This document shows, piece by piece, positions 1 to 19,546 of a DNA stretch of 64,000 nucleotides. The notes beneath the pieces are model-generated. The model was not told the DNA's origin. It was given only the letters and a program-made list of their open reading frames with translations, and searched no databases. Positions within the stretch are counted from its first letter, which is position 1. Every line of letters starts with the position of its first letter. Location of the stretch: the NCBI GenBank assembly GCA_029256105.1, contig JAQSYO010000002.1, positions 248,001-312,000 on the forward strand, read 5' to 3'. The DNA comes from Herbinix sp. (GTDB lineage: Bacteria > Bacillota > Clostridia > Lachnospirales > Lachnospiraceae). Position numbers and translations under genes: made by a program.

Positions 1-10
1 CCTCGACTAG

Positions 11-52
11 AAAAACTTATCAGTTTTATAACAAGACTGATAGGTTTTTATT
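11..52. terminator. hairpin terminator, probably bidirectional
   Basis: A 14-bp stem (11-24 with 36-49) with one G-T pair is flanked by A5 on the left and T5 on the right, as in a Rho-independent terminator usable from both sides. It probably ends a gene that lies before the window. Confidence 0.7.
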
Positions 53-85
53 TATTATTAATTATATTTTAAGGGATCAAACTAC

Positions 86-115
86 TTGACATTAGGTGGA
101 ATATTGGATTACTAT
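86..115 (+). promoter_or_regulatory. sigma-A-type promoter of the acetyltransferase gene
   Basis: TTGACA at 86-91 and TACTAT at 110-115 are separated by 18 bp. The gene start follows about 118 bases downstream. Confidence 0.5.
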
Positions 116-232
116 TTGTATAATTTAAGAGGTACAATATGGATGTGTCGTTTTGAAATATGAAATGTACTCATTCACAATTATAAAGAAGTATGATTAA
201 TAAAATACTAGGTCATATTGAGGAGGACAAGG

Positions 233-730
233 ATGGAACTGATCATTAGAGCTATGGGATTGGAAGACTGGGAGGAAGTGGCTTCGATTTATAAGGAAGG
301 AATTGAAACAAAAATCGCAACCTTTCAACAAGAAATACCTACCTACGAGGCATGGGATGAGTCTCATATTAAGTCCTGCCGTCTGGTGGCACAGGAAGAT
401 GATACGGTAATAGGATGGACAGCCCTAAGTCCAGTTAGTAGCCGCTGCGTCTATTCCGGTGTTGCTGAGGTAAGTGTCTATGTAAAAGAAAATCAGCGTG
501 GTAAACAAGTTGGTGAGAAGCTGATGCGCGAACTAATTATAGAGGCAGAAGAGGAAGGACTTTGGACACTGCAATCCGGTATTCTTGAGATTAACAGTGC
601 AAGTATAGCATTACATAAGAAGGTAGGCTTTCGCATGGTAGGGTATCGGGAAAGAATTGCGAAGGATCAGAATGGGGTATGGCAGAATACAGTTTTGATG
701 GAGAGAAGAAGTTCGTTAGTTGGTATATAG
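233..730 (+). CDS. GNAT N-acetyltransferase, phosphinothricin acetyltransferase-like
   Basis: This 165-residue protein looks like a single GNAT domain that transfers acetyl from acetyl-CoA to a small amine. The acetyl-CoA loop reads Q-R-G-K-Q-V-G (about residues 93-99), preceded by the strand AEVSVYV, and the C-terminal part has the N-S-A-S-I-x-L-H-x-K-x-G-F motif typical of the Pat/Bar/YwnH subgroup. The substrate cannot be read; methionine sulfoximine or similar amino acid analogues are known for this subgroup. I chose the ATG at 233 because AGGAGG lies at 221-226, six bases before it; an in-frame TTG at 218 lies upstream of that site and has no ribosome binding site. It is a single-gene transcript with its own promoter and a hairpin after the stop. 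Confidence 0.85.
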   Translation: MELIIRAMGLEDWEEVASIYKEGIETKIATFQQEIPTYEAWDESHIKSCRLVAQEDDTVIGWTALSPVSSRCVYSGVAEVSVYVKENQRGKQVGEKLMRELIIEAEEEGLWTLQSGILEINSASIALHKKVGFRMVGYRERIAKDQNGVWQNTVLMERRSSLVGI

Positions 731-755
731 GAAATTGAATATTGTATAAAGCGAA

Positions 756-800
756 AGGCTGTTCCCCACATTTTATATTGGTTGGGTAACAGCCTATTTA
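756..800 (+). terminator. terminator after the acetyltransferase gene
   Basis: A 13-bp stem (756-768 with 783-795) with one mismatch is followed by a short AT-rich run with few consecutive T. Moderate support. Confidence 0.5.
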
Positions 801-852
801 ATCATTTATGCTAAGGCTTCTATAAAGTTAATATATGATTACAAAGAATAGA

Positions 853-1014
853 TTAGATACCTCTTATATTACCTGAGGAAGGTGACTTATTCGATGCAGT
901 TTTTGAACGATGATCAGTATGGGTAACACTTTTATTACTAACATTATTATCTGTGGCACTACTTTTCCCTTGTTTTTTGGAGGACACGTTTTCAGTGTTA
1001 TTGCTGTTATTCAT
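853..1014 (-). CDS. small hydrophilic Asn/Ser/Lys-rich protein (53 aa)
   Basis: An ATG at 1014 is preceded by AAAGGAG at a normal distance and opens a 53-codon frame ending in TAA at 853. The product starts MNNSNNTEN, is about half Asn, Ser, Lys and Thr, has no hydrophobic segment and no Cys, and is probably disordered. I do not recognise a family. The good ribosome binding site and uninterrupted frame argue for a real gene; low complexity argues for caution. It resembles in character, not in sequence, the two tiny hydrophilic proteins at 32.7-33.0 kb. Confidence 0.5.
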   Translation of the reverse strand: MNNSNNTENVSSKKQGKSSATDNNVSNKSVTHTDHRSKTASNKSPSSGNIRGI

Positions 1015-1108
1015 AATGTAATACTCCTTTCGATAGTGGTTTTAGTAGTGTTTGTAGAAAAATAAAAAGTATACACAAATTTGAAAGTAGAACAGAGTTA
1101 AAATTTAA

Positions 1109-1390
1109 TTAACCAATCACCCACAAATGATGAATCACATCAAAACATAACGTTATGTCATTCCGGTACCCATAAGCGTCATACCTACAATAAAATATTT
1201 TGACCATGTGCTGATCCTTAATGGACTTGACCGCATCGACTTTAAATTTAAAAATTTCACAGTTATCATCTTCAACGGAAAAATATCGTGGGATGAGATC
1301 ACCTACCGTATTAAAGGCAGCTATTACAGCTACAGGATGACCTTGGGGATGTTTTATGATTGGACTATGATCAGGTTTTAAAAATGGCAT
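1109..1390 (-). CDS. hypothetical protein (93 aa) behind a palindrome-bearing promoter
   Basis: The predicted protein starts MPFLKPDHSP and is a compact, mixed alpha/beta-looking small protein with many aromatic and His residues and no membrane segment or signal peptide. I do not recognise the family. I chose the ATG at 1390 because GAGGT precedes it by seven bases; a longer frame from 1447 would run through the promoter region and has no ribosome binding site. A promoter with a 14-bp perfect palindrome in its spacer lies just upstream, so the gene is probably repressed by a dimeric regulator, perhaps LexA. Confidence 0.6.
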   Translation of the reverse strand: MPFLKPDHSPIIKHPQGHPVAVIAAFNTVGDLIPRYFSVEDDNCEIFKFKVDAVKSIKDQHMVKIFYCRYDAYGYRNDITLCFDVIHHLWVIG

Positions 1391-1418
1391 ATTGTGCACC
1401 TCAGAGATTAATAAGATT

Positions 1419-1447
1419 ACTATAACAAACATATGTTTGCATTGCAA
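1419..1447 (-). promoter_or_regulatory. promoter with operator palindrome in the spacer
   Basis: On the minus strand TTGCAA (1447-1442) and TATAGT (1424-1419) are separated by 17 bp. The spacer holds the perfect palindrome CAAACATATGTTTG (1426-1439). The centre matches the Gram-positive LexA box GAAC-N4-GTTC except for symmetric A and T in place of the outer G and C. A repressor bound here would block polymerase. Confidence 0.5.
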
Positions 1448-1540
1448 TAATCAGAATATGGAATTGGTTTTGGGAAAGAGTAATTTCCAGTTTACAGGAC
1501 TATTTCTAGCTCATGGAATAAGTGAATTTAGGCAGGAGAA

Positions 1541-1563
1541 AAGCCAACTTATTCAGTTGGCTT
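1541..1563 (+). other. perfect 8-bp hairpin in intergenic DNA
   Basis: AAGCCAAC (1541-1548) and GTTGGCTT (1556-1563) pair perfectly around a 7-base loop. No real T-run follows, so it is a weak terminator at best. It lies just before the decayed frame at 1581. Confidence 0.35.
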
Positions 1564-1580
1564 TAGGGGAGGGAAATTTT

Positions 1581-1685
1581 ATGAAAAAATCTATTTAAAT
1601 TTTACTTGTTAGCTTTGTGATTTGTTTATAGTTTTATTATATACGTGATATGTGTAGAAGATATAGAGAAATGGTGAACAATTAA
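1581..1685 (+). pseudogene. possible decayed small membrane protein or signal peptide
   Basis: GGGAGGG (1567-1573) stands at the right distance before an ATG at 1581, but the frame stops after MKKSI at 1596. Read through, the frame continues with a hydrophobic stretch ILLVSFVICL, a second stop at 1629, then FYYIRDMCRRYREMVNN and a stop at 1683. A start, a hydrophobic stretch and a basic tail in one frame look like a small membrane protein with two nonsense changes. Chance is not excluded. The rest of 1447-1844 shows no other gene. Confidence 0.25.
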
Positions 1686-1844
1686 TGAAGAAGTGCGGGA
1701 TAAATGAATGAATTGTAAACGATGTGAACGGTATCCGAATGAAAGCTTGGGGTAGGCTTTAATTCATTCATGTTTCTTAGAGTACTAGAAGTTTAGATGA
1801 AATTAAGCGAATTGATATATATGCTAATATGGTGTTGTTAAAAG

Positions 1845-1873
1845 TTGATGAATAATAGAAAATATTGTATAAT
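1845..1873 (+). promoter_or_regulatory. promoter of the 152-aa membrane protein gene
   Basis: TTGATG (1845-1850) and a consensus TATAAT (1868-1873) are separated by 17 bp. The start codon follows 27 bases after the -10 element. Confidence 0.65.
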
Positions 1874-1900
1874 GGTGTAAATGAACGATGGAGGTAAATC

Positions 1901-2359
1901 ATGAACAGATTAATTAATTTATTGACAAAAATTTTAATGAATTTTATATGTAAAAGTATCAAGAGTTTACCGATAAATAACCCATATTTTACATTCGATA
2001 TGTACAATACTGGAAATAATAGTCTTTACATATTATCTGAACATGTGAACGATGAATTATATAAATTTGAAGACAATTATATAAAGTGGCTATACCACAT
2101 ATGCAATAGTAAAGCTGAAACAGGAAGTTATATGAGTAATGCTATATCGGGAATATTTGTTCCTCTTATGGTGGCATATATGATGACTTTGATTACTGAT
2201 AAATCTGATTATGTAATATTTATAGTAATTATTGTAATATTATTTTTAATGTTATACTTTACATACCACTCTGCTAAATCGCAATTACAGACGTCTTATT
2301 ACAAATTTTATTTAGGGAAATTTAAAAATGAAGCAGATAAAAGGGGAATAGCACTATAA
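1901..2359 (+). CDS. hypothetical membrane protein with two C-terminal TM segments (152 aa)
   Basis: The ATG is preceded by GATGGAGGT. The first ~85 residues are soluble and rich in Asn, Tyr and Ile. Two hydrophobic segments follow at about 87-102 and 108-125, separated by a short TDKSDY turn, and a basic tail ends the protein. This gives a hairpin membrane anchor with a cytoplasmic or external N-terminal domain. I do not recognise the family. The gene is alone, with its own promoter and a UUCG-loop terminator about 100 bases after the stop. Its A+T content is higher than that of the metabolic genes nearby, which may mean recent acquisition. Confidence 0.6.
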   Translation: MNRLINLLTKILMNFICKSIKSLPINNPYFTFDMYNTGNNSLYILSEHVNDELYKFEDNYIKWLYHICNSKAETGSYMSNAISGIFVPLMVAYMMTLITDKSDYVIFIVIIVILFLMLYFTYHSAKSQLQTSYYKFYLGKFKNEADKRGIAL

Positions 2360-2467
2360 TGTTATGATGATAATTTCCTGATTGAATCTGATGATATTTG
2401 AACCCCATCATAGTATCTATATGATTGAAACATGTTAAGATAGATTTAGAAGTAAAATTAAATAGTG

Positions 2468-2489
2468 AAGCATCCTTCGGGGTGCTTTT
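2468..2489 (+). terminator. UUCG tetraloop terminator
   Basis: An 8-bp stem (2468-2475 with 2480-2487) closes a TTCG loop and is followed by TTTT. It is a typical Rho-independent terminator for the gene ending at 2359. Confidence 0.75.
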
Positions 2490-2605
2490 GATTCCCGATT
2501 AAGCAAACAGAACCCAAATAGAATAATCGAATAAAAATCAGACAACAATTCCTTACCTTTCTGAAACTAAAAGCTTACTGTACGTAAAATAAATAACCTA
2601 CAAGC

Positions 2606-2632
2606 TCAAAAAAACACCCATTTCTGAGTGTT
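2606..2632 (-). terminator. terminator of the tRNA-Thr transcript
   Basis: On the minus strand an imperfect hairpin built from AACACTC and GGGTGTT is followed by seven T. It lies about 40 bases downstream of the tRNA. Confidence 0.6.
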
Positions 2633-2673
2633 ATACATTATCTCTAACCATTAATTTTTAGGATTTTCTTCAA

Positions 2674-2746
<73 letters not shown>

Positions 2747-2970
2747 ATTTATTAAAATAATTATTGTAAGTCTTAGAAAAAGGCTACTCAACTATTCTAT
2801 TATAAACATGACAAAAATTCAAGGACTTTTTATAATTTGTTTGAAGCAATTGTAAACATCGGATTAATATCAAATTTATATTTGAAAATTAAATGTATTT
2901 ACATGATAAATTTTATATAAATCAATATAAGACCTTCCTCTCAAAAGAATCTAACCCAATATATAAAATA

Positions 2971-2994
2971 GACCCCTGCAATTCCGCAGGAGTC
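2971..2994 (-). terminator. terminator after the degV gene
   Basis: A 9-bp stem (2971-2979 with 2986-2994) has a 6-base loop and one A-C mismatch. On the minus strand it is followed by TCTATTTTAT. It lies about 65 bases after the DegV stop. Confidence 0.6.
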
Positions 2995-3059
2995 TATGAT
3001 GCAAATACAAATAAACTTATCTTTCGTATGCACGATTTGCAAAAATTAACAACAAATTC

Positions 3060-3929
3060 TTATCTCTTCTCCCCCATAAAGCAAAGCCCAATCGCTCCAG
3101 GCCCGGAATGAGCTCCTATACTTGGGCTAACGAAATTGATAACAATTTCTTTATTCGGTAATTTCTCAAGAATTAATTCTGCCAGATAATTCGCATCGTC
3201 AATCGAATCTCCATGAACGATACAGATTACATCATCGCCATCTTTATATTTACCCATACTATCGAGCATATCATTACAAATGGTAGCCAAGGATTTCTTC
3301 CTACCCCTTGAAGTAGAGAGAGCAACAAGCTGTCCTTCGGAATTTAAGTAAAGAATGGGTTTAATATTAATCATGGAGCCGATGAATGCAGTAGTTTTTG
3401 AAATTCGTCCACCTCGGTGAAGATGGTTTAAATCGTCAACCGTAAAGCGGACACAGAAGTCCTGCTTATGTTCCTCTAACCAATTAGCGGTTTCGTCAAT
3501 CGTTTTGCCTTCTTCCCGCATTCGAACAGCTTTCATGACGAACATGCCTTCACCCATGGATGCATTGAGCGTATCTATCACGATGATTTTGGCACCAGGG
3601 TTTTCCTCGCATATCTCGCGAGCACCTGTAACAACATTACTGCAGCCACCGCTTAAAGCGGAGGAAAAACTGATATGTAATATGTCAAATCCCTGATCCA
3701 CGTAATCTTGGAATGTTTTACGGATTACTTCGGGATTGCTAGCCATGGTTGTCGGCATAAGACCGGTTCTCATCTTATCATAGAATTCTTTCGGAGTAAG
3801 ATTAACTTCGTCTCCATAAGTAATTCCTTCTAAATCATAGTAGTGAGGTATGATACCGATTTGTTTTTCCTTGATGTAGTCTTCAAGCAAGTCGGAGTTT
3901 GAATCAGCAGTTATAACAAAATCTTTCAT
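3060..3929 (-). CDS. DegV family fatty-acid-binding protein
   Basis: This 289-residue protein has the length and layout of DegV/FakB proteins, which hold a fatty acid and present it to the FakA kinase to make acyl phosphate for phospholipid synthesis. It begins with a strand and then T-A-D-S-N-S-D. The central part has SFSSALSGG (about residues 85-93), the R-G-G-R-I-S motif near residue 172, and the C-terminus has S-I-G-A-H-S-G-P-G-A-I-G, all typical of the family. No signal peptide is present. GGGAGG precedes the ATG at a normal spacing. No fakA is visible in the window, so the kinase partner must be elsewhere. It is a single-gene transcript. Confidence 0.9.
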   Translation of the reverse strand: MKDFVITADSNSDLLEDYIKEKQIGIIPHYYDLEGITYGDEVNLTPKEFYDKMRTGLMPTTMASNPEVIRKTFQDYVDQGFDILHISFSSALSGGCSNVVTGAREICEENPGAKIIVIDTLNASMGEGMFVMKAVRMREEGKTIDETANWLEEHKQDFCVRFTVDDLNHLHRGGRISKTTAFIGSMINIKPILYLNSEGQLVALSTSRGRKKSLATICNDMLDSMGKYKDGDDVICIVHGDSIDDANYLAELILEKLPNKEIVINFVSPSIGAHSGPGAIGLCFMGEKR

Positions 3930-4092
3930 ATCTTAGACCCTCCCAAATAGTGGTGATAATCCTATTCTACTAGAGACAACATTTTTACGCAATAGAATAA
4001 TAGAAATAATGGCTGAGTATTTGTATCATACTGAATCATAAGTGGATAATTATGAAAAAAGTCCCTAATTATAGTAGATACCGTCAAGAAGA

Positions 4093-4123
4093 TCGGCTGC
4101 TTAAGGGAATTCTAAGCAGCCGA
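4093..4123 (-). terminator. terminator of the interrupted ABC transporter operon
   Basis: A perfect 11-bp GC-rich stem (4093-4103 with 4113-4123) has a 9-base loop. On the minus strand it is followed by a T-rich run. It lies about 45 bases after the permease stop. Confidence 0.75.
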
Positions 4124-4168
4124 CATAAAAAATTGATATTTAGATATAAGATACTTTAGGAACATTCC

Positions 4169-4993
4169 CTACCTGGTAAATTTTTTCTCAAAAAACGTCA
4201 ATAACTTATACAGACATGTAGCTACTACACATAGAATAACAATTGACATTATAACCCAGTCTAGTTTGAATACCTGGCTTCCATAAATAATTAAATATCC
4301 TAAGCCGGCCTTAGATGCTAAGAATTCACCTATGATTACACCCACTAAGGAAAGACCGATATTCACTTTCATCTGACTAATGATGGAAGGAATATTGGAA
4401 GGTAGGATAACCTTGAAGAGTACATCCTTCTTCTTGCCGCCCAAGGTATAAATTAACTTTATTTTGTCTTCTTCCACCGATTTGAAGTCAGAATACAAGT
4501 TTATGATGGTTCCAAATACCGCGACCGATACCGCGGCTACGATGATGGTCTTCATATTGTTGCCAAGCCATACGATAAAAACAGGCGCCAAGGCTGATTT
4601 GGGTAGGCTGTTCAGTACGATTAGATAAGGCTCCAATACCTTCGATATACTGTCGTTCCACCAAAGAATGATCGCCATTACAAGCCCGATAATGTTAACG
4701 AGAGCAAAGCTAACCAAGGTCTCAAGTAAGGTAACTCCGACGTGGTATAGGAGTTGGCCACTTACCGTCATTTCGATTATTGTTTTCCCAACCCGGGATG
4801 GGCTTGAGAACACAAAGGAGTTCAAGATACCAAGCCTTGCAGTTATTTCCCATATGGAAATAAAACTAATCAAAATAATGAATTGGTAAAAGCGAACCCA
4901 ACGAAGACGTAGCAAATGTTTTCTGACATATGCTTGTTGAGCGGCGGAAATGTTTAAGCTTTCGCTTTCAACTTTTTTGCTTTTCCTGCTCAT
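4169..4993 (-). CDS. NitT/TauT-family ABC transporter permease
   Basis: This 274-residue integral membrane protein matches the SsuC/TauC/ThiX type of BPD-transport permeases. About six TM segments start at about residue 36. The EAA loop that docks with the ATPase is visible at about residues 175-200, with the conserved G in Y-T-L-G-G and the P in I-L-P-S. The start overlaps the end of the ATPase gene by 26 bases, so the two were one translational unit. The substrate could be a sulfonate, nitrate/cyanate or a thiamine precursor; no substrate-binding protein gene is adjacent, so this stays open. Because the ATPase gene upstream is interrupted, the permease is probably starved of its motor unless the insert is excised or another ATPase serves it. 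Confidence 0.85.
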   Translation of the reverse strand: MSRKSKKVESESLNISAAQQAYVRKHLLRLRWVRFYQFIILISFISIWEITARLGILNSFVFSSPSRVGKTIIEMTVSGQLLYHVGVTLLETLVSFALVNIIGLVMAIILWWNDSISKVLEPYLIVLNSLPKSALAPVFIVWLGNNMKTIIVAAVSVAVFGTIINLYSDFKSVEEDKIKLIYTLGGKKKDVLFKVILPSNIPSIISQMKVNIGLSLVGVIIGEFLASKAGLGYLIIYGSQVFKLDWVIMSIVILCVVATCLYKLLTFFEKKFTR

Positions 4994-5615
4994 TGTGATT
5001 TAGCTCCTTCCATATCAAATTAAAATACTCTTTAAATTCAGGTGCACTTCTTGTTGTAAATGGTGTGCGGTCTTCTATAGAAGGATTAATATCAAATACA
5101 TTTACTACAGTTCCCGGACGCGAGGATAATACAATGACGCGATCCGCCATACTGATTGCCTCTGAAATATCATGCGTAATTAATATTGCTGTTTTCTTCT
5201 CTTTACGAATAATACCCCAGATATCATCCGCTACTTCAAGGCGCGTTTGATAATCTAGGGCGGAGAAGGGCTCATCAAGTAGTAGAATATCCGGCTCCAA
5301 GAGTAGTGTACGAATGAGCGCTGCTCGTTGCCTCATACCACCGGATAACTCGGAGGGGTGGGAATTTCTAAAGGTTATTAAACCGTAGGTGTTCAATAGC
5401 TCATTTATTTGGACATAACTGTTATCGTACAGTTTATGCTGAATTTCCAGGCCGAGAGTAACGTTTTTTAGTGTGTTTCGCCAATCTAGAAGATGATCTT
5501 TTTGAAGCATATAGCCGATATTTTTGCCGGAGGATTTGATGTCCTTTCCATTAATATATATTAAACCACTGCTGGGTGAGAGTAGGCCGGCTATCAGAGA
5601 GAGTAGGGTAGATTT
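4968..5615 (-). pseudogene. C-terminal part of an ABC ATPase gene interrupted by the 4.8-kb element
   Basis: Read on the minus strand from codon AAA at 5615, this segment encodes KSTLLSLIAGLL, the second half of Walker A, then the Q-loop region (GYMLQKD), the signature LSGGMRQR, Walker B ILLLDEPFSAL and the H-loop ITHDISEA. It has 215 codons plus stop. The first 46 codons lie 4.8 kb away at 10398-10535 and end exactly in GPSGCG. Together they make a 261-residue NitT/TauT-type ATPase with Walker A GPSGCGKST. In the present arrangement translation could only restart inside, at the ATG at 5510, which lacks a ribosome binding site and would give a protein without Walker A. I therefore read it as a gene split by an insertion that is reversible in principle, not as random decay: no other damage is seen. 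Confidence 0.88.
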
Positions 5616-5640
5616 GCCGATGGTAATATAGTGGAAACTT
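5614..5640 (+). other. left attachment junction of the element
   Basis: The core TTGCCG (5614-5619) is followed by the element arm ATGGTAATATAGTGGAAACTT in 5620-5640. TAGTGGAAA in this arm recurs inverted at the right end. Left of the core is the ATPase sequence that begins KST. Confidence 0.8.
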
Positions 5641-5734
5641 ATAATATGGGTGGTGTACTTAGGACAAGGATTAGTGCGTAAACTTTATTAAGATTTATTT
5701 GGATGTGGTATTTGTGAGGAATATAAATATAATA

Positions 5735-5890
5735 ATGCATTTTCCTGAGGATGAGGCATCGCTCTGTTCTATTACGAACGTTACAATAGAAACCTATCTA
5801 TTATCTGTTAAGAAAATACTTGATCAATCGAATCTAACTTTAAAAGAAAAGAAGGACCTGTTAAATAGGGTGACAATCAAGAATTGTTAA
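5735..5890 (+). CDS. possible small protein of the element (51 aa)
   Basis: A short frame starts MHFPEDEAS and ends in a helical, charged part with LTLKEKKDLLNRV. The only ribosome binding site candidate, GAGGA at 5716-5720, is about 14 bases before the ATG, which is far; an upstream TTG at 5699 has none. I do not recognise it. Its place directly inside the left end of a serine-recombinase element would suit a recombination directionality factor, which is often a small basic or helical protein, but nothing in the sequence proves that. Confidence 0.3.
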   Translation: MHFPEDEASLCSITNVTIETYLLSVKKILDQSNLTLKEKKDLLNRVTIKNC

Positions 5891-5978
5891 ATGATGTAAA
5901 TGTATGTAAATCGTAAGTATAATTAACGTAATTAGTTCGTATTTAATAAGAAAAACTCTGCAGTATCTTATTTATTTG

Positions 5979-6007
5979 TTGACAATAGAAACTTATATTG
6001 GTATATA
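5979..6007 (+). promoter_or_regulatory. promoter of the chemoreceptor gene
   Basis: A perfect TTGACA (5979-5984) and TATATA (6002-6007) are separated by 17 bp. A TATAAT at 6006 would give a 21-bp spacing. The leader before the start codon is about 115 bases long and contains a small GCCAT/ATGGC hairpin near 6071. Confidence 0.55.
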
Positions 6008-6131
6008 TAATGATATAAGAAAAACGTATGAAGGAACTGGACGAGCAGTTATACTCATATGGCTTAAAGTGCCATTGAGGATGGCTGCTTCTTTATCGCA
6101 GATTTATCGAAGGACACATAGGAGGAAGACC

Positions 6132-8318
6132 ATGACGAAAACATTCAAAATCAAAGAACTGTTGCAAAAAATACAGTTTAAAAGAAAGAAAATAGGCGCA
6201 CAAGTAATTCCTGACGTTCAGGAAGTGGTCGATCAAATTGATAACAAAAAAGAAGGACTTTTGAAAAAGCATTCGATTAAGTTACCAAATAAATTTTTGT
6301 CAAGAGTGTCTGGAATCCGAATTAAGTTATTAATTGCCTTTGCTATCCCGATTTTTTTAATGGCTATATTTGGGGTTGTGTCCTATAACAAATCTTCGAA
6401 AGCAATAATATCAAATTATGAGAAGATTTCGGGTGATACCTTAAATGCAGTAGAGGAATACATTTTCATGGGCGTAGATGCGGTTTCTACGAAATCCTAT
6501 GAGTTGGCGGATAACAATAAAGTAAAGAGCTATTATAAAAAAGCGAAAGATATGACTACTGAGGAGAGTGAGGATGCCTTTAATGTAGTTAATGAAATAG
6601 TTAATACGGCCAAAACATCTCATTCCTTTATTTATTCAATACATACCATTGGCGAAATGGGAAATAGCATTTCAACAGTGGATAAGCTCCCACAAGATAT
6701 CTATAATCAATTTCTCGCCTCTCCGGAGGGACAGATGATAGCGTCCTCTACGGAACGTTACATGTGGATTGGGAAGCATAGTTTTCTGGATGATCAATTA
6801 CAAAATAAACAGACCACCTATGCTATTTCAATTGTAAGAAAAATGGCTGAAAATAATGGATTTGTTATTATCGATGTGCCGACAACTCAAATTGAAAAAG
6901 CAATTTCTCATGTGGATTTTGGTGAAGGAAGTCTGATTGGCTTTGTGACAGAGGATGGAGTTGAAACACTTTCTAATAAAGAAGAAACAAGTGTTTTCTC
7001 GGGTTTGAAATATTATCAGGAAGCTGCCGCAGGGAATGAGCCAAATGGCTTCTCCTATGAGAAATATAAAGGGGAAGACTATTTATTCCTATATAGTAAG
7101 ATTGGCAGTACAGGAGCTTCCTTATGTGCATTGGTTCCGAAAGATACGATATTACAGCAAGCAGAACAATTAAAATTTTTAAGTTTAATATTTGTTACTT
7201 TAGCATGTATTTTAGCTGGTATAATAGGAACTGTAATCGCTAGTGGAATTGGCGGTGAGATTGTTAAATTATCAAAATCAATCGCTCTTGCTGCAAAAGG
7301 TGACTTAACTACCAAATTTGATACCAAGCGCAACGATGAGTTCCTTATTTTATCAAGCAGCTTAACCGATATGGTTGGAGGAATGCGAAATCTTATCGAG
7401 AAGGTGGCAACCTTTGGTACAAAGGTAAATGGTTCAGCGAATACGCTCTCCGATACATCCTCCGACATTTTGGGATCCACTAAGGATATCTCCTTGGCAA
7501 TTGATGAAATTGAAAAAGGTGTTGTACAGCAGGCAAACGATACGGAACAATGTCTATTCCAGATGTCAGACTTATCAGATAAAATAAATCAGGTTTACCA
7601 GAATACCTACGAAATTGAGCAGATTGCAAAAGACACGAAATTAATCGTTGGCAACGGACTTGTTACTATGGATGAGTTAAATAATAAATCAAGTGCAACT
7701 ACCGATATTACTCATGTTGTAATTAATGAGATCGAAGGATTAGAGGTTCAGACTCGCAGCATTGCAAATTTTGTTGGAGTAATCAATGATATAGCATCAC
7801 AGACCAATCTTTTATCCTTAAATGCTTCGATTGAAGCAGCGAGAGCTGGAGATGCAGGACGTGGATTTGCTGTAGTAGCAGAAGAAATTCGTAAATTAGC
7901 CGACCAATCCATGAATGCATCAAATCAAATTACAGGTATCGTAAGTGCTATTCAGAATAAGACGAAGGGAACTGTGGTTTCAGCGAAGCAAGCAAAGGAT
8001 ATTGTGGAATCACAAATGGAGGCACTAACAAAGACCATAAGTACGTTTGAAAATATTAATGAGCATGTTGGTAGTCTTGTTAATAATCTGAATAATATTG
8101 CAGAAGGCGTGAAGGGTATTGAATCAGCGAAGGATGAGACGTTGGATGCAATCCGTAATATATCAGCAATATCTCAGCAAACAGCCACTTCCTCGGAAGA
8201 AGTAAGTGCAACAGCAAATAATCAGATAACTTCCGTAGAGTATTTAAGCCAATCAGCAGCTGAACTTGCAGAGGATTCCAAGAAACTTGAGGAAGCAATT
8301 CAAATATTTCAGATTTAA
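6132..8318 (+). CDS. methyl-accepting chemotaxis protein carried by the element
   Basis: This 728-residue transmembrane chemoreceptor signals to CheA/CheW. In order it has a basic cytoplasmic N-terminal stretch of about 63 residues, which is unusually long; TM1 at about 64-85; an external sensor region at about 86-345; TM2 at about 347-371; a HAMP region; and a long MCP signalling domain. The highly conserved tip reads [15 protein letters not shown] near residues 555-570. No C-terminal CheR-tethering pentapeptide is seen. I chose the ATG at 6132 because GGAGGAAG precedes it; an upstream in-frame extension would cross the promoter. No che genes are in the window, so it must plug into an array encoded elsewhere. 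It is the only large cargo of the recombinase element, which is an odd cargo. The sensor region is diverged and its ligand cannot be told. Confidence 0.92.
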
Positions 8319-8430
8319 TGAATAATTTAATGAGAAATTTAATGAGATAGGTTGTATTAAATATAGAACTGCTTCATGAACTTGGTAAGTGATATAATGA
8401 ATAACATTAATTAAATAATTGTAATATTAG

Positions 8431-8458
8431 AATGGGTTCCTTATGGAATCCATTTTTT
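8431..8458 (+). terminator. terminator after the chemoreceptor gene
   Basis: A 10-bp stem (8431-8440 with 8445-8454) with one G-T pair and a 4-base loop is followed by a T-run. The rest of 8319-8635 is AT-rich and shows no gene. Confidence 0.75.
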
Positions 8459-8635
8459 ATAAAAATATATATTCAGTTTTTAACACATCAATAAGTATTA
8501 AAGAACTTTTATTACGAATTTCCTGTGAAGTACGATTACCAAAATTTCATCAGCTTTATTCATTCTTTGTATAAGATATCAATAATAATATGGTAAGATA
8601 CCTATTTTATTACTTAACAAAGTTTGGAGGCAGGG

Positions 8636-10372
8636 ATGCGGATTGCAATTTACAGCCGTAAATCAAAATGGACCGGTAAAGGGGAAAGTATAGAAAATCA
8701 ATTAATCATGTGCAGAGAATATGTGATGGCAAACTTTCGGGAGGTGAAGGAAGATAGTATCTATGAATATGAGGATGAAGGTTTTTCCGGTAAAAATACA
8801 CAAAGGCCGCAGTTTCAGAAAATGATCTCCGATCTGCGAAGAGAACATTATGATTATTTGGTTTGCTATAAATTAGATCGTCTGGGGAGAAATCTTACCG
8901 ATCTAGTTAATTTAATAGAGGAACTGAATAAAATGGATACCTCTTTTATCAGTATCAAGGAGAAATTCGATACCTCAACACCAATAGGTAGAGCTATGAT
9001 GTTCTTTACTGGAGTGTTGGCACAGATGGAGAGAGAGCAGATTGCAGAACGTGTCAGAGATAATATGCTAATGTTAGCTAGATCCGGAAGATGGCTTGGT
9101 GGAGCGACACCTCTTGGATTTCATTCAACGAAGGAGGAAGCAATAACCTTTCACAATAAGGTAAAAACGTCGTATCGACTGACCTTGTGCGAGGAGGAGC
9201 TAGAAATGGTCCGATTTATATATCGGGAGTTCTTAGAAAAACAATCCTTATCACAGCTAGATACCTATTTCATACAAAATAATATTAAGACAAGAAAGGG
9301 GAAGGAATATCAGATATCAACAATAAGAGATATCCTTACGAACCCGGTATATTGTACTGCTGATCAAGCTTCCTACGATTATCTGGTTAAACTCGGCTGC
9401 CAGGTATGTATGGAGGAAAGTGAGTTAGATGGTATCCATGGCTTGATTAGCTACGGGAAAACCTCCTCAGCAAAATATAAAAATAAACAAAATGACCCTT
9501 ATGAATGGATTATTGCAGCAGCTAAACACAAAGGAATAATAGGTGGTAAGGACTGGGTAAAAGTTCAGGAGATTTTAGCTAGGAACAAGTTCAAAGGAGA
9601 TAGCTTTCGCAAAGTACAAAATCCTATCTCGCTTTTATCTGGTTTGTTATATTGTAGTTGTGGGTATCCGATGAGACCCAAAAATTATCCCCTGGACCGT
9701 ACAAATGAAGAGGGTGACAGAAGTTTTGCCTATTTATGTTCCCAGAAGGAGAAATCAAACCGTAAAAATTGTGATATACCAAATATTCCTGGAAATAAAT
9801 TGGACCAAATGGTTTGTAAAGAGGTATTAGAATTTGTATGCCCTATTATAAATATCCCTCTAGAGCTAAAGAAAATAGGAGATTGTCTGGAATTGACTAA
9901 GAATAGTATTACCTCTGAAGCGGAGATGCTAAAACATGCGCTAAAGGAAAAGAAAAGCGGAATGAATCAATTGATTGTTAGCCTAAGTAAATCAGATGGA
10001 AATGATAACTTTGTAAAATATATTGAACAGCAGGTTAATCAACTGGATAGGGAGTGTAAGGAGATAGAAGAAAAAATAGAAAGCCTTGCAGGTAACGAAA
10101 AAGGGATTATGGAAAAAAGGATTAAGGAAAAAGAGATTATAGAAAAAGATATTACTGAAAAATGGATTATGGAAGAAGAAACTAGGAAAGAAGAAACTAT
10201 GAAAGAAGAAATTTTGGTAGAAGATAGGATTGAAGAACGGATTGGTTCCTTTCGTAACGCATTTGCTTTCTTATCTCTTCCACAAAAAAGAGATTACCTT
10301 AGAGCCATAATAGAGAAGGTTGTTTGGGATGGTGAAAATGCGCATATTTATATCGGAGGTAAGAAAATATAA
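8636..10372 (+). CDS. large serine recombinase (integrase/excisionase)
   Basis: This 578-residue protein has the full large-serine-recombinase layout. The N-terminal resolvase domain begins RIAIYSRKS, with the catalytic Ser in Y-S-R and the conserved D-R-L-G-R-N further on. A 'recombinase' DNA-binding domain follows (about 150-260). A zinc ribbon has C-S-C-G near residue 340 and two more Cys near 368 and 378. A coiled coil and a short C-terminal domain end the protein. The ATG at 8636 follows GGAGG by five bases; a TTG twelve bases upstream overlaps that site. The gene ends inside the right attachment arm of the element, as is usual when the recombinase acts on its own ends. Its coiled coil contains an expanded charged repeat (see 10098-10215). 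It most likely inserts and removes the element at the ABC ATPase gene. Confidence 0.93.
   Translation: MRIAIYSRKSKWTGKGESIENQLIMCREYVMANFREVKEDSIYEYEDEGFSGKNTQRPQFQKMISDLRREHYDYLVCYKLDRLGRNLTDLVNLIEELNKMDTSFISIKEKFDTSTPIGRAMMFFTGVLAQMEREQIAERVRDNMLMLARSGRWLGGATPLGFHSTKEEAITFHNKVKTSYRLTLCEEELEMVRFIYREFLEKQSLSQLDTYFIQNNIKTRKGKEYQISTIRDILTNPVYCTADQASYDYLVKLGCQVCMEESELDGIHGLISYGKTSSAKYKNKQNDPYEWIIAAAKHKGIIGGKDWVKVQEILARNKFKGDSFRKVQNPISLLSGLLYCSCGYPMRPKNYPLDRTNEEGDRSFAYLCSQKEKSNRKNCDIPNIPGNKLDQMVCKEVLEFVCPIINIPLELKKIGDCLELTKNSITSEAEMLKHALKEKKSGMNQLIVSLSKSDGNDNFVKYIEQQVNQLDRECKEIEEKIESLAGNEKGIMEKRIKEKEIIEKDITEKWIMEEETRKEETMKEEILVEDRIEERIGSFRNAFAFLSLPQKRDYLRAIIEKVVWDGENAHIYIGGKKI
10098..10215 (+). 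repeat. degenerate repeat inside the recombinase coiled coil
   Basis: The DNA is a run of degenerate GAAAAAGGGATTATG-like units of about 15-18 bases. It encodes alternating Lys/Glu with Ile/Met every few residues, such as EKGIMEKRIKEKEIIEKD. It extends the coiled coil between the zinc ribbon and the C-terminal end and probably arose by slippage without breaking the frame. Confidence 0.6.
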
Positions 10373-10401
10373 CTTTCCACTACTTCTCCATCGCATTGCC
10401 G
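10371..10401 (+). other. right attachment junction of the element
   Basis: The element arm begins AACTTTCCACTACTTCTCCAT (10371-10391) and runs through CGCA to the core TTGCCG (10396-10401). The arm is the imperfect inverse of 5620-5640, sharing TTTCCACTA. Right of the core the ATPase coding sequence resumes. Confidence 0.8.
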
Positions 10402-10535
10402 CAGCCGCTTGGACCGACGATTGCAACAAATTCTCCATCCTTCACATGAAAAGAAACATCGAATAGCGCCGGTGTTTCCCCTTCAAGGCTATGATAGGTA
10501 TAACTGATGTGATCGATTTTTAGTAATTCGCCCAT
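10380..10535 (-). pseudogene. N-terminal part of the interrupted ABC ATPase gene
   Basis: From the ATG at 10535, behind GGAGGA, the minus strand encodes a typical start of a NitT/TauT-type ATPase: MGELLKIDHIS, then L-F-D-V-S-F and the first half of Walker A, F-V-A-I-V-G-P-S-G-C-G. Native sequence ends at 10398. The frame then runs five codons (NAMEK) into the element and stops at 10380. The continuation of the gene is at 5615-4968. The 5' end, ribosome binding site and frame are intact, so the transcript start for the whole operon is here, on the far side of the insert. The product as it stands is a useless 51-residue peptide. Confidence 0.88.
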
Positions 10536-10665
10536 AGTATTCCTCCATATTTGGTTATACTGTATTATATGTAAGGACAAATGATAGGTTACATAGGTTC
10601 AGGTGTAGATCAATCTATAGGTCAAATAAACGTTGGATTAATTAATATAAGAATTTGGAATTATG

Positions 10666-10700
10666 TAATTTCAAATTGCAGAATAGTATAATTTCAAATT
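10666..10700. promoter_or_regulatory. paired TAATTTCAAATT sites upstream of the gcv promoter
   Basis: TAATTTCAAATT occurs at 10666-10677 and again at 10689-10700, spaced 23 bp, about two helix turns. The second copy ends eight bases before the -35 element of the glycine operon. Such paired sites suggest a regulator binding one face of the DNA. They lie between the divergent ATPase and gcv genes, so either could be the target. Confidence 0.35.
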
Positions 10701-10707
10701 ACATGTG

Positions 10708-10736
10708 TTGACTTTGAAGAGGCTGCATACTATAAT
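10708..10736 (+). promoter_or_regulatory. promoter of the glycine cleavage operon
   Basis: TTGACT (10708-10713) and consensus TATAAT (10731-10736) are separated by 17 bp. Transcription would start just before the riboswitch. Confidence 0.75.
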
Positions 10737-10758
10737 ATTAGTATAATCGGATGAAGAA

Positions 10759-10936
10759 TTTGGGAGAGATCATAAGCTGTTAGAAAGACTTAAGACGCCG
10801 AAGGGGAATGCAGAAACTCTCAGGCAAAAGGACCAAATTTGGACGATACTCTGGAAAGCGATGATGCACCGACGAAGCAACCTCCGGTAGCTTGAATTTT
10901 TAAGCAGGAGAGAATCTTTCAGGTAAACCAACAGAG
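10759..10936 (+). ncRNA. tandem glycine riboswitch
   Basis: Two aptamers follow each other. The first has GGGAGAGA, then GACGCCGAAGGGG, CTCTCAGGCAAAAGGACC and the closing ACTCTGG. The second has GGAAAGCG, GCACCGACGAAGCAA, and GGAGAGAATCTTTCAGGTAAACC with ACAGAGG at the end. These are the conserved blocks of the gcvT RNA motif. A terminator directly follows, so glycine binding should prevent termination and switch the cleavage genes on, as known for Bacillus. The second aptamer core reads GACGAAGCAA, slightly diverged from the usual GACGG. Confidence 0.93.
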
Positions 10937-10967
10937 GCGTATTGATTTATTCAGTACGTCTTTTTTT
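10936..10967 (+). terminator. riboswitch expression-platform terminator
   Basis: A stem (10936-10945 with 10951-10960, two G-T pairs) with a 5-base loop is followed by seven T. It shares GG at its base with the last riboswitch segment, consistent with competition between aptamer and terminator. A further 150 bases of leader without a gene follow before gcvT. Confidence 0.85.
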
Positions 10968-11116
10968 ATTGCGTAAAAATTTATTTTCCGTTATAAAATT
11001 CTAAAATAAGACGTACATATTTTACTTAACACGTATTCCTGATCTAGGAGAATGCGTGCTGAAAGGCTTTCGTGTCCATATAGAAAAGGAGACGAAAAGC
11101 AGAATAGGAGGTTAGG

Positions 11117-12268
11117 ATGGAAAGGAAAACTCCTCTATATGATTGCCATGTGAAGGCAGGAGGAAAGTTAGTTCCCTTTGCCGGTTATCTATTGCCGGTA
11201 CAATATGAGACGGGAGTAATTACAGAGCATATGGCCGTTCGAACAACAGCGGGCTTATTTGATGTATCCCACATGGGTGAAGTTGTGTTAAAAGGGAAGG
11301 ATGCTTTAAAGAACGTACAACGATTAGTGAGTAACGATTGCAGCCGTATGTATGATGGTCAAGTAAAATACAGCCCGATGTGCAATGAGAATGGCGGTGT
11401 GGTGGATGATCTATTAGTTTACCGACGTAAGGAGGACGATTACCTTATCGTAATTAATGCAGCGAATCGCTTCAAGGATGTGGAATGGATGAAACAACAT
11501 TTAATCGGAGAAGTTGAATTTGAAGACATATCGGATGAGGTAGCACAGCTGGCACTTCAAGGTCCACAGGCTAAGGCAATCTTAAGCAAGTTAGCGGAGG
11601 AGTCACTATTACCGGTTAAGTATTACAGCTTCTCAGAAGGTGTTATGGTTGCAGGTATCTCCTGCTTAGTGTCTAGAACAGGGTATACTGGAGAAGATGG
11701 TTATGAGTTGTATTGTGACAATGAAGATGCACCTAAGTTATGGGATTCCTTATTAGAAGCAGGCAATTACAAAGTTAATGATTTGCCGGAAGAAGGAAAT
11801 ACTTCGATAACTAAGGAAGAAAGTATACCTACACTCTCTATAATTCCCTGCGGTCTTGGTGCTAGAGATACGTTGCGTCTTGAAGCAGCAATGCCGTTAT
11901 ATGGACACGAGATGGACGATACGGTATCACCACTTGAGACAGGTTTGGGATTTGCAGTTAAGCTTGAGAAGGAGGACTTCATTGGCAAAACAGGAATGCT
12001 TGCAAAAGGCGTACCCACAAGAGCTAGAGTTGGATTAAACATCACTGGGCGAGGAATTGCAAGGGAAGCCTGCCCAGTTTATTATAATGGAGAGCAAATT
12101 GGTGCAACCACCTCGGGTACCCACTGTCCGTATCTTGGACGACCGATTGCAATGGCTTTAGTGTCAACGGAGCATAGTGCATTAGGAACCCACGTAGAAG
12201 TTGATGTAAGAGGAAGAAGAATAACTGCAGAGGTTGTGGCGTTACCCTTTTATAAAAGAACGACATAG
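11117..12268 (+). CDS. gcvT: glycine cleavage system T protein (aminomethyltransferase)
   Basis: GcvT takes the aminomethyl group from the lipoyl arm of GcvH, passes the methylene to tetrahydrofolate and frees ammonia. The protein has 383 residues. Family motifs are the start with K-T-P-L-Y-D-x-H, F-A-G-Y near residue 21, the V-S-H-M-G-E block near residue 50, G-Y-T-G-E-D-G-Y near residue 192, and G-A-R-D-T-L-R-L-E-A near residue 251. Between the E-A-G helix and the C-G-L-G-A-R-D motif, where relatives have a few residues, there is an extra stretch of roughly 25 charged residues (about 217-241), which is unusual. The ATG follows AGGAGG. It is the first gene of the riboswitch-controlled operon. 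Confidence 0.97.
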   Translation: MERKTPLYDCHVKAGGKLVPFAGYLLPVQYETGVITEHMAVRTTAGLFDVSHMGEVVLKGKDALKNVQRLVSNDCSRMYDGQVKYSPMCNENGGVVDDLLVYRRKEDDYLIVINAANRFKDVEWMKQHLIGEVEFEDISDEVAQLALQGPQAKAILSKLAEESLLPVKYYSFSEGVMVAGISCLVSRTGYTGEDGYELYCDNEDAPKLWDSLLEAGNYKVNDLPEEGNTSITKEESIPTLSIIPCGLGARDTLRLEAAMPLYGHEMDDTVSPLETGLGFAVKLEKEDFIGKTGMLAKGVPTRARVGLNITGRGIAREACPVYYNGEQIGATTSGTHCPYLGRPIAMALVSTEHSALGTHVEVDVRGRRITAEVVALPFYKRTT

Positions 12269-12398
12269 AATAGAAGCGTAGCAATTTAAGTTCTTTTGAT
12301 GTTATGAATAAAACATCTGACAAAAAGGCATTTCTATCAAGCAGAGTTCCTTAATTAGCGAAATAAAAAATATATTAAATCTTTAGGAGGCTTTTTCA

Positions 12399-12764
12399 AT
12401 GAAAAAAGAATATGTGTTTTCCAAATCCCACGAATGGGTAAAATTTTCAAACGGAACAACAGCAAAAGTTGGTATCTCTGATTATGCACAGGGGCAGTTA
12501 GGTGATTTAGTATTTATCAATTTACCTGAGGTTGGTGATGAGTTAGTAGCAGGAGAAGAGTTTGCAGATGTTGAATCCGTTAAAGCGGTATCCAGTGTAT
12601 ACAGTCCGGTTACAGGTACGGTAAAGGCAGTCAATGAAGAGCTGTTGGATCATCCGGAACTCGTTAATTCAGATGCGGCTGATGCTTGGTTTGTAGAAGT
12701 GGAAGATATCCGTGATCAAGTTGAATTATTATCAGAAGAGGATTATAAAGCACAACTTTCTTAA
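12399..12764 (+). CDS. gcvH: glycine cleavage system H protein
   Basis: GcvH is the lipoylated carrier that shuttles the aminomethyl group between GcvP, GcvT and Lpd. It has 121 residues, close to the usual length. The lipoylation lysine sits in D-V-E-S-V-K-A-V-S-S (residue 66), followed by the S-P-V-T-G turn. The ATG is preceded by AGGAGG. A 130-base gap without a gene separates it from gcvT; gcvPA follows 12 bases downstream. The ligase needed to charge the lysine is encoded in the same operon (lplA). Confidence 0.97.
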   Translation: MKKEYVFSKSHEWVKFSNGTTAKVGISDYAQGQLGDLVFINLPEVGDELVAGEEFADVESVKAVSSVYSPVTGTVKAVNEELLDHPELVNSDAADAWFVEVEDIRDQVELLSEEDYKAQLS

Positions 12765-12776
12765 GGGGGAAATGCA

Positions 12777-14108
12777 ATGGGCACTTATGTACCAAATACA
12801 AGTAAGGAACAGCTGGAAATGCTTCGTGAAATTGGTGTAGAGCATACGCGTGATTTATTTAAAGCAATTCCAGATGCGGTATACCTTGATCGTCCACTAG
12901 AACTTCCGAAGGGATTATCGGAATTCGAAGTTAGGAGAAGAATGACAGAGGTTGCAGGAAAGAATAAAGTGTTCCAATCCATTTTTAGAGGATGCGGAGC
13001 CTACAATCATTTCATTCCCTCAATCGTGAAACAGATTACCTCTAAGGAAGAATTTGTAACAGCTTATACACCTTATCAGGCTGAGATTAGCCAGGGTATT
13101 TTGCAGTCCATATTTGAATATCAGACGATGATATGTGAATTAACCGGGATGGAGGTCTCCAATGCTTCCGTCTACGATGGCGCTACTGCAGCAGCAGAAG
13201 CAGTGATTATGTGTAAGGAACGTCAGAGAAAAAAGGCAATCCTTTCAGAGACTGTTCATCCGGAGATAATAGAGACAATTAAAACCTATTGTACAGGCAC
13301 GGATCTTGAGATCATATTAGTTCCGGTTAAAGATGGTCTGACAGATCTTGAAAAATTAAAAGAATTAATCGATGAAGAAACAGCCTGCGTCTTAATCCAA
13401 CAACCGAACTATTATGGTCAATTGGAGGATGGGGATAGTATTGGTGTAATTACAGCGAATAAGGAAGCAAAGTTTATTGTAAGCTGTAACCCTATCTCCT
13501 TAGGAATTCTAAAAACGCCGATTGAATATGGTGCAGACATTGCAGTAGGGGAAGGTCAACCCTTGGGAATGCCATTATCATTTGGTGGCCCCTATCTTGG
13601 ATTTATGGCAACTACCAAGAAGCTGATCCGTAGTCTTCCTGGAAGAATCGTCGGAGAAACCACGGATAATAAAGGGCGCAGAACCTTTGTATTAACTTTA
13701 CAAGCTAGAGAACAGCATATACGGAGAGAGAAGGCTTCCAGTAATATCTGCTCCAACCAAGCATTATGTGCAATGACGGCAGCAGTATACCTGGATGCAT
13801 TGGGCAAGAAAGGGCTGCAGCAGGTTGCAGAGCTTTCGATGTCCAAGGCACATTATCTAGCTAGTCAGTTATGCGAATTGGACGGCTTTGATTTGGTATA
13901 TGCAGGAGAATATTTTAATGAATTTGTTACTACCTGCAAGGGTAGTGTGGATAAAGTCCTAAGTAAATTAGAGGAACGTGGAATTCTTGGTGGTTATCCT
14001 CTGACTGGGGCGAATAGTGGTCACATTCTCTGGTGTGCAACAGAAATGAATACCAAGGAAGAGATTGACTCCTTAGTTAATATATTAAAGGAGGTGCAGA
14101 GCTTATGA
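12777..14108 (+). CDS. gcvPA: glycine dehydrogenase (decarboxylating) subunit 1
   Basis: This 443-residue protein is the N-terminal half of the split P protein found in Firmicutes and archaea. With GcvPB it decarboxylates glycine using PLP and loads the aminomethyl group onto GcvH lipoate. It begins Y-V-P-N-T, has R-G-C-G-A-Y-N-H-F-I-P near residue 77, the P-Y-Q-A-E-I-S-Q-G block near residue 98, and the glycine-rich loop around G-E-G-Q-P-L-G-M-P. This half does not carry the PLP lysine. GGGGGAA precedes the ATG. Its stop overlaps the start of gcvPB by four bases (ATGA), implying translational coupling of the two subunits. Confidence 0.97.
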   Translation: MGTYVPNTSKEQLEMLREIGVEHTRDLFKAIPDAVYLDRPLELPKGLSEFEVRRRMTEVAGKNKVFQSIFRGCGAYNHFIPSIVKQITSKEEFVTAYTPYQAEISQGILQSIFEYQTMICELTGMEVSNASVYDGATAAAEAVIMCKERQRKKAILSETVHPEIIETIKTYCTGTDLEIILVPVKDGLTDLEKLKELIDEETACVLIQQPNYYGQLEDGDSIGVITANKEAKFIVSCNPISLGILKTPIEYGADIAVGEGQPLGMPLSFGGPYLGFMATTKKLIRSLPGRIVGETTDNKGRRTFVLTLQAREQHIRREKASSNICSNQALCAMTAAVYLDALGKKGLQQVAELSMSKAHYLASQLCELDGFDLVYAGEYFNEFVTTCKGSVDKVLSKLEERGILGGYPLTGANSGHILWCATEMNTKEEIDSLVNILKEVQSL

Positions 14109-15538: not shown

Positions 15539-15554
15539 TAGAAAGAGGTAGCTC

Positions 15555-16565: not shown

Positions 16566-16617
16566 CAGATACGCTTTCTGATTAACTATATCAAATAAAC
16601 TGGAGAGGATAGGATAC

Positions 16618-18027: not shown

Positions 18028-18058
18028 TGAAAATGATTATAACTATTAACAAATAAAG

Positions 18059-18120
18059 TACAAACTAACAAGGACTAAATCCAGTTTATACCGGATTTAG
18101 TCCTTGTTAGTTTGTATTTT
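18059..18120 (+). terminator. very long perfect terminator hairpin after the gcv operon
   Basis: A perfect 24-bp stem (18059-18082 with 18093-18116) and a 10-base loop are followed by TTTTATT. It ends the riboswitch operon. The length and perfection of the stem are well beyond a usual terminator. Confidence 0.85.
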
Positions 18121-18205
18121 ATTAAATTGACTACTCCTCAGTTTATTACTAAAGTTGCGATGCTTTATGAAAAAGTTTCATCATAATTAAAATCATTATG
18201 TCTAT

Positions 18206-18583: not shown

Positions 18584-18665
18584 TTTATTTTCTCCTTAAT
18601 TTAAATTCTATATTTTTGATACACAATATAATACTGTTACGACTCTTTATGGATAAATGGTAACT

Positions 18666-18755
18666 CTAAAAAACAAAAATTCGGAACAATTGCTTATAAA
18701 GCTCAAAAGCCCCATCACTTTTCTTAACATAAATCTGATGTATTGTTCTAAACAT
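18666..18755 (-). pseudogene. 5' remnant of a VOC/PhnB-like gene
   Basis: AGGAGG stands seven bases before an ATG at 18755, and the frame encodes MFRTIHQIYVK...AFELYKQLF before stopping at 18666 after 29 residues. An opening strand followed by a helix with F-E-L-Y-K is how PhnB-type glyoxalase-fold (VOC) proteins begin; the rest of such a protein (over 100 residues) is missing and the DNA beyond is AT-rich. Ribosome binding site and start are intact, so this looks like a 3' deletion. The product itself could not fold as a VOC domain. Confidence 0.45.
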
Positions 18756-18885
18756 ACTACATCCTCCTAGTTTATAAACATGTTTTTTATACTACTTAAC
18801 AGTTCTTTGAATTTCTCCATCTTGAAGATCAGACCCGTAAGTTGGTAATAATTCGCCCAGTTTTATAAATTAAACTATCCGCAAA

Positions 18886-19512: not shown

Positions 19513-19546
19513 GTAATGTTACCTCCAATATAAGCTTTTAGATTTA

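Follow-up and report, generated by a model that had tools for sequence, protein, structure and literature searches.

A skin-like recombinase element, probably excised during sporulation, in the Walker A codon of a Herbinix transporter ATPase gene

In a stretch of 64,000 nucleotides from Herbinix sp. (GenBank assembly GCA_029256105.1, contig JAQSYO010000002.1, positions 248,001 to 312,000; hereafter the window), a gene for a NitT/TauT-type ATP-binding cassette (ABC) ATPase on the minus strand is interrupted at its Walker A lysine codon, between residues 46 and 47, by an element that encodes a large serine recombinase (LSR). The locus raises the question of whether, and when, a cell could make use of a gene that is cut at this point. 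A preliminary description had proposed a reversible switch on a nutrient importer. Our analysis of the sequence leads to another answer: the insert is probably a small non-phage, skin-like gene-intervening element that is excised in the sporulating mother cell.

The split gene and the element within it

The features of the locus, in window coordinates, are the following.

4169..4993, minus strand: cognate permease (BPD_transp_1, Pfam), overlapping the 3' end of the ATPase gene
4968..5615, minus strand: ABC ATPase 3' part, residues 47–261 and stop, starting KSTLL (PF00005; LSGG, Walker B and H-loop kept)
5614..5619: shared core TTGCCG, left end (from sequence); crossover probably at TT in the K47 codon
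5616..10397: inserted element, 4,782 bp (junction analysis)
5619..5638, plus strand: inner att arm, left (GATGGTAATATAGTGGAAAC); like arms recur in kindred elements
5714..5890, plus strand: small open reading frame (ORF), 58 amino acids, GTG start (TTG at 5699 possible); candidate recombination directionality factor (profile match)
6132..8318, plus strand: cargo, methyl-accepting chemotaxis protein (PF00015, MCPsignal)
8636..10372, plus strand: LSR, 578 amino acids (PF00239, PF07508, PF13408; ATPase-target clade)
10372..10393, minus strand: inner att arm, right (imperfect inverted copy); like arms recur in kindred elements
10396..10401: shared core TTGCCG, right end (from sequence)
10398..10535, minus strand: ABC ATPase 5' part, residues 1–46, ending GPSGCG of Walker A (sequence, in-frame rejoining and genus orthologues)
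10563..10589, minus strand: putative sigma-K-type promoter AC-N16-CATATAATA, 27 bp before the ATPase start codon (motif match)

The coordinates and translation that the preliminary description had given for the two ATPase parts were borne out (residues 47–261 occupy 5615–4971 and the stop codon 4968–4970), as was its placing of TTGCCG at both junctions. Joining the flanks at TTGCCG by a script yielded, as had been claimed, a single frame of 261 codons with no interruption and with the Walker A motif GPSGCGKST. Precise excision of the element at this short shared core would therefore restore the ATPase frame. Pfam ABC_tran scored above its cut-off on the C-terminal half and below it on the N-terminal half, and NCBIfam returned no equivalog over cut-off for either the ATPase or the permease. 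The suggested comparison with relatives revealed intact ATPase orthologues in most genus mates, mostly at 85–92% identity. The split is not a matter of chance, since in many other species the orthologue is interrupted by kindred LSRs at this very codon.

The chemoreceptor and the LSR that had been described between the ATPase halves agree with the Pfam domains found there; the Resolvase, Recombinase and Zn_ribbon_recom families all scored over cut-off within one long protein, as expected of an LSR. Together with the small ORF these are the plausible genes of the element, and phage structural genes were not found in it. Chemoreceptor paralogues with 66–68% DNA identity over part of the gene are present elsewhere in the same genome, while the whole element occurs there once. 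Imperfect inverted repeats lie inside both ends (left, GATGGTAATATAGTGGAAAC; right, read in reverse, GATGGAGAAGTAGTGGAAAG); inverted-repeat arms at the ends are a feature of LSR att sites. In kindred elements the recurring inner arms read GTTTCC(G/A)CT...ACCATCGCATT on the side of the N-terminal half (N-half) and TTTGCCGATGGTATAGTAGTGGAAAC on the side of the C-terminal half (C-half). Every junction read, 37 on the C side and 64 on the N side with some loci read twice, has the dinucleotide TT at the split. The split C-halves begin with KST in 48 cases out of 50 and with KTT in the other two.

Kindred elements and the lineage of their recombinases

A search of genome contigs (genome_contigs) for LSRs related to that of the window confirmed 433 relatives, of which the best 80 were kept. 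An ATPase half was present in 56 of these 80 loci. In 52 it was an antiparallel N-half at most 600 bp after the LSR end, and in four of the 56 (L150, L165, L166 and L173) the N-half was not directly past the LSR. The remaining 24 loci contained sigK pieces, or their target could not be told. The same split occurs in the genus mate G003 (locus L039; also L128, a Herbinix sp. metagenome-assembled genome) with an LSR 66–72% identical to that of the window and, in G003, with a different cargo, a GH30 glycosidase. LSRs that are 40–54% identical adjoin the N-half in seven other genera of the family. Isolates are among the carriers, for example Sporofaciens musculi, Eubacterium sp. 14-2, Petralouisia muris, Schaedlerella arabinosiphila and Lachnospiraceae bacterium A2. 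Behind such loci stand 42 genomes, 39 of them ATPase-type, and a C-half starting at residue 35–76 was found in 34. Two of the genomes, G355 and G388, hold an additional intact ATPase copy (60–62% identical) that is either a paralogue or contamination. In G373 two different LSRs of the clade are present, one (L150) on the contig of the C-half and one (L162) beside the N-half, perhaps as tandem elements.

We surveyed 299 genomes chosen to represent nearly every genus once; 151 carried an ATPase orthologue (E <= 1e-62), and the gene was plainly split in seven of them. Partial matches were obtained in G112, G162 and G180, and the split gene of G259 fell below the cut-off. An apparent break in G028 was rejected as a scaffold gap of N. 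Carriage of Walker-A-type LSRs by phages or plasmids was rejected, since the best match among those listed for phages had 39% identity, that among the 5,000 plasmid records kept had 37% at 84% coverage (36% at full length), and that in viral_contigs had 39% over the full length or 41% over a part.

Complete elements measured from 2,421 to 16,442 bp, further ones being larger judging by contig coordinates, and both size and cargo differ from element to element. Twenty cargo proteins were scanned. They include surface proteins with leucine-rich repeats and fn3 domains, a kinase-regulator hybrid, Lon, FtsX and ABC-2 permeases, an AraC regulator, an alcohol dehydrogenase, a pyruvate formate-lyase-like protein, PfkB, GH30 and others; one has primase domains, one has a HerA-like helicase domain, three have no family at all, and phage structural or relaxase families were not detected among the 20. 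A conserved helix-turn-helix-like ORF of ~155 amino acids starts in or next to the left att arm of many larger elements, within the first 500 bp (L138, L323, L326-L329, L346, L348 and others).

To place the recombinases, a quick tree of 100 LSRs was built without bootstrap; it has some long branches, and one row with a stop was dropped. All 59 ATPase-target LSRs fall on one side of a single branch with an SH-like approximate likelihood ratio (SH-aLRT) of 100. The neighbours of this clade are LSRs found beside the C-terminal piece of sigK. A second neighbour group consists of 11 LSRs, four of which (L181, L182, L189 and L190) lie near the N-terminal sigK piece, the target of the others not having been made out. 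By its position in this tree, the window recombinase appears to belong to the lineage of clostridial sigK-element recombinases. Genome G003 holds both a split sigK (contig C82, L043) and a split ATPase gene (contig C46, L039).

The small ORF provides a further link. A profile made from 21 small ORFs, mostly of ATPase elements and with the window and L044 members entered by eye, also matches ORFs in sigK elements (e.g., L119 at 2.7e-10, L123 at 4.4e-9, L200 at 2.3e-8 and L116 at 1.2e-7). The comparison with sigK and skin made in the preliminary description is thus closer than an analogy, since the LSR clade adjoins the LSRs of sigK elements and the small-ORF family is common to both. Upstream of 22 of 54 small-ORF copies (52 distinct) we found a sigma-E-like box, AT[AT]-N15-18-CATANNNT; 200 Markov-random draws gave a mean of 1.1 and a maximum of 5, and a sigma-A-like motif, taken as a control, showed no enrichment (5 of 54, against 4.6 expected). 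The window copy is preceded by GGACAAG, a SpoIIID-like word. Searches of Pfam and PHROGs with the small ORF returned only scattered weak matches, and PDB matches were mainly to designed helical proteins. The AlphaFold model is a two-helix hairpin (pLDDT 78.7, pTM 0.41), too plain for a useful fold search. In C. difficile, the skin element is served by the LSR CD1231 and the directionality factor CD1234, a protein of 72 amino acids under sigma-E and SpoIIID, as reported in PMC5025042. We suggest that the small ORF is a candidate recombination directionality factor.

A sporulation gene as target and the case for excision

The sigma-K-type consensus AC-N15-17-CATANNNTA is present at most 130 bp upstream of the ATPase start, typically 26–29 bp before it, in 99 of 110 loci (112 less two with too little sequence; the rows are related and do not amount to 110 independent tests). 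It precedes 50 of 54 split genes and 49 of 56 intact ones, while 200 dinucleotide shuffles averaged 1.45 and never exceeded 6. SpoIVA was detected in 194 of the 299 surveyed genomes. The ATPase and SpoIVA occur together in 148, the ATPase alone in 3, SpoIVA alone in 46 and neither in 102 (Fisher p = 5e-39, uncorrected for kinship). The ATPase target thus looks like a mother-cell sporulation gene. An ABC transporter, ytlA, ytlC and ytlD, appears among the sigma-K genes of a B. subtilis-based sporulation list, whose table marks it for one of the two genomes compared, apparently C. lentocellum and not Epulopiscium (PMC3416734). The C. difficile sigma-K regulon as given in PMC3789822 includes ytlC (CD1927), a permease (CD1904) and a 'fragment of ABC-type transport system' (CD1891). 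Family, promoter and these published lists agree in making the ATPase a candidate YtlC orthologue. Control of the ATPase by a riboswitch was rejected: in window positions 1–20000 a glycine riboswitch and a tRNA alone reached the gathering score, and the riboswitch lies at 10751–10845, upstream of glycine-cleavage genes beginning with gcvT.

Decaying ATPase halves were named in the preliminary description as an argument against a gene that is restored, and the halves found could be tested for this. All 56 N-halves are without a stop, and all 50 split C-halves keep the LSGG, Walker B and H-loop motifs. A check of 50 split C-halves with 50 permeases and 50 LSRs flagged a single stop, in the C-half of L128, where it is the natural end. 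On the other side, the C-half was not found at E <= 1e-50 in five of the 39 ATPase-type carriers (G358, G374, G383, G388 and G396), where it may be lost, too diverged or unassembled. In a gene dead since insertion, the ratio of nonsynonymous to synonymous divergence (dN/dS) should drift towards 1. For split C-halves the median pairwise dN/dS was 0.091 (n=46, range 0.005–0.33; pairs limited to dS 0.2–1.5). In two sets the agreement of LSR, host genes and cargo suggests vertical inheritance of the element. These are L169/L171 (LSR dS 1.25, permease dS 0.86, 13 shared cargo clusters, with the cargo read as L356/L357 and element lengths of 16,440 and 16,442 bp), with a C-half dN/dS of 0.047, and L114/L187/L197 (3–4 shared cargo clusters), with 0.005–0.027. 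The split halves thus stay open, and purifying selection acts on them even in the sets with apparent vertical descent of the element.

The kindred elements sit at the same spot in an apparent spore-formation gene, and precise excision at sporulation is therefore probable. During vegetative growth the ATPase gene would be split and useless, yet not needed. In the mother cell, the small element protein would enable the recombinase to recombine attL with attR and so release the element in circular form, after which the sigma-K promoter would drive transcription of the restored ATPase-permease operon. The spore would keep the element, which makes the change a terminal one and not a reversible switch.

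Several explanations compete with this one. The most serious takes the insert for an ordinary site-specific mobile island, with the Walker A codon as attB, the gene lost while occupied, the insertions recent and excision serving transfer. In its favour, some elements clearly move horizontally: in L131/L136 near-identical host genes (dS 0.07–0.12) carry LSRs of saturated dS at the same codon, an apparent element replacement, in L140/L142 the LSR dS is 0.03 against a permease dS of 0.98, and L133/L136 also points to replacement or transfer. Varied cargo, the intact state of the gene in most genera that have it, the C-halves missed in five carriers and a C-half dN/dS of 0.45 (at dS 0.11) in the vertical-looking pair L135/L137 fit it as well. 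The low ratios in the pairs with matching divergence and shared cargo do not, nor does the lack of a single decayed half among the C-halves (50) and N-halves (56) that were found; the target has the marks of a sporulation gene, the LSRs are kin to those of sigK elements, and the scanned cargo is free of phage structural and relaxase families, primase and HerA-like domains notwithstanding. We consider the island account unlikely, though by no means far-fetched. That growing cells switch a nutrient importer on and off reversibly seems to us very improbable. Excision would indeed restore the gene, and LSR reactions are in principle reversible by attP x attB integration. Such integration is reported for the C. 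difficile skin LSR in PMC5025042. The sigma-K-type promoter and the co-occurrence with SpoIVA, however, mark a sporulation gene and so point to excision in a terminal mother cell, passed to no daughter; an empty site, moreover, is absent from the assembly. As to an assembly artefact or a plain pseudogene, the genome is a draft of 101 contigs with a contamination estimate of 7.48%, but both junctions lie inside one 407-kb contig, the split recurs in other species including isolates, and the halves are open, which leaves this explanation with hardly any credit.

A number of observations weigh against excision in the mother cell, besides the missing C-halves and the pair L135/L137. The excised product or circle foreseen in the preliminary description was not seen, either as a circle or as an empty-site junction, in the window's assembly, the only place looked. 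Neither a whole nor a split sigK reached the curated cut-off in the same assembly, although SpoIVA is present; perhaps this is an assembly gap. The ATPase gene is intact in most genera possessing it, and the element is therefore dispensable; the horizontal movement described above means that not all splits are old. The median C-half dN/dS is higher in split than in intact pairs (0.052, n=32), and in-frame loop insertions are present in the C-halves of L135, L137, L138 and L155, their motifs being kept. The sigma box of the window small ORF is imperfect, with CGTA for CATA, and the assignment to YtlC is that of a candidate. Taken with these points, a skin-like element excised in the mother cell is still the reading we consider probable.

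A second docking site and known gene-intervening elements

The same kind of gene is met at another recombinase junction. In 18 of 80 loci from viral_contigs (IMG/VR), namely L211, L220-L231, L233, L234, L239, L262 and L266, many of them near-identical, an ATPase C-terminal piece (residues 196 to 252-258, 41–54% identity) follows an LSR, and in all three loci read (L211, L221 and L229) a permease comes after the piece. For L221, 87% of the compared stretch matches a Paraclostridium sordellii record at 95%. These prophages, whose LSRs were left out of the tree, resemble the window element in an LSR ~38–39% identical and in the ATPase gene family used, beside a permease where read, but their site is near residue 196–201 and not at Walker A. 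In L044, from another family, an LSR and a small ORF of 72 amino acids split the ATPase near residue 201 (L044:8521-11302); this LSR falls outside the Walker-A clade in the tree, and the 3' part of the ATPase gene was not found in the stretch examined. With LSR elements at Walker A and at residue ~196–201, one kind of transporter gene therefore docks different LSR elements at two sites. We lean, with some reserve, towards a wider picture in which a skin-type recombinase lineage moved from the gene of a sigma factor to one in the regulon of that factor, terminal mother cells of many gut Lachnospiraceae rebuild the ATPase by excising a small element that swaps its cargo, and the gene serves as a two-site dock for different LSR elements and prophages.

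None of the literature matches listed describes an ABC ATPase gene interrupted by an element of this type, most subscription journals being outside the search. The named sporulation gene-intervening elements described in PMC5025042, PMC5595907 and PMC10747680 (skin, SPbeta, vfbin, gin and yin) are few and mostly prophage-like; if our reading is true, the ATPase-element family would rank among the most widespread of them. Elements down to 2.4 kb would reduce the system to a recombinase, a small helper and optional cargo, and the family offers LSRs together with the candidate directionality factors and att sites that belong to them. With it one can ask why elements settle in mother-cell genes, where the dying cell pays the cost and the spore retains the element, by what route a skin-type recombinase came to a new target, and which small proteins set the direction of LSR reactions.

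The closest known system is skin of sigK in Bacillus subtilis and C. difficile, in which an LSR element likewise interrupts a mother-cell sporulation gene in frame. The LSRs of the sigK pieces form the neighbouring tree groups, and a small ORF of ~60 amino acids accompanies the LSR in both systems. Unlike skin, the target here is a transporter ATPase with a sigma-K-type promoter and not a sigma factor, att lies at the Walker A codon, and the elements, as small as 2.4 kb, are known from sequence, with excision presumed. The gin element of gerE in Bacillus cereus, as described in PMC5595907, is also a non-phage island in a sporulation gene, with a serine recombinase and a helper, and its shared core is similarly short (9 bp against 6 bp here); it differs in its size of 28.6 kb, its three recombinases, its regulator gene target and its occurrence in Bacillus. 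According to PMC10747680, yin of yabG in Clostridium botulinum, SPbeta in spsM and vfbin in spoVFB are likewise recombinase elements in late sporulation genes, but, unlike the window element, they are prophage-like and occupy other target genes.

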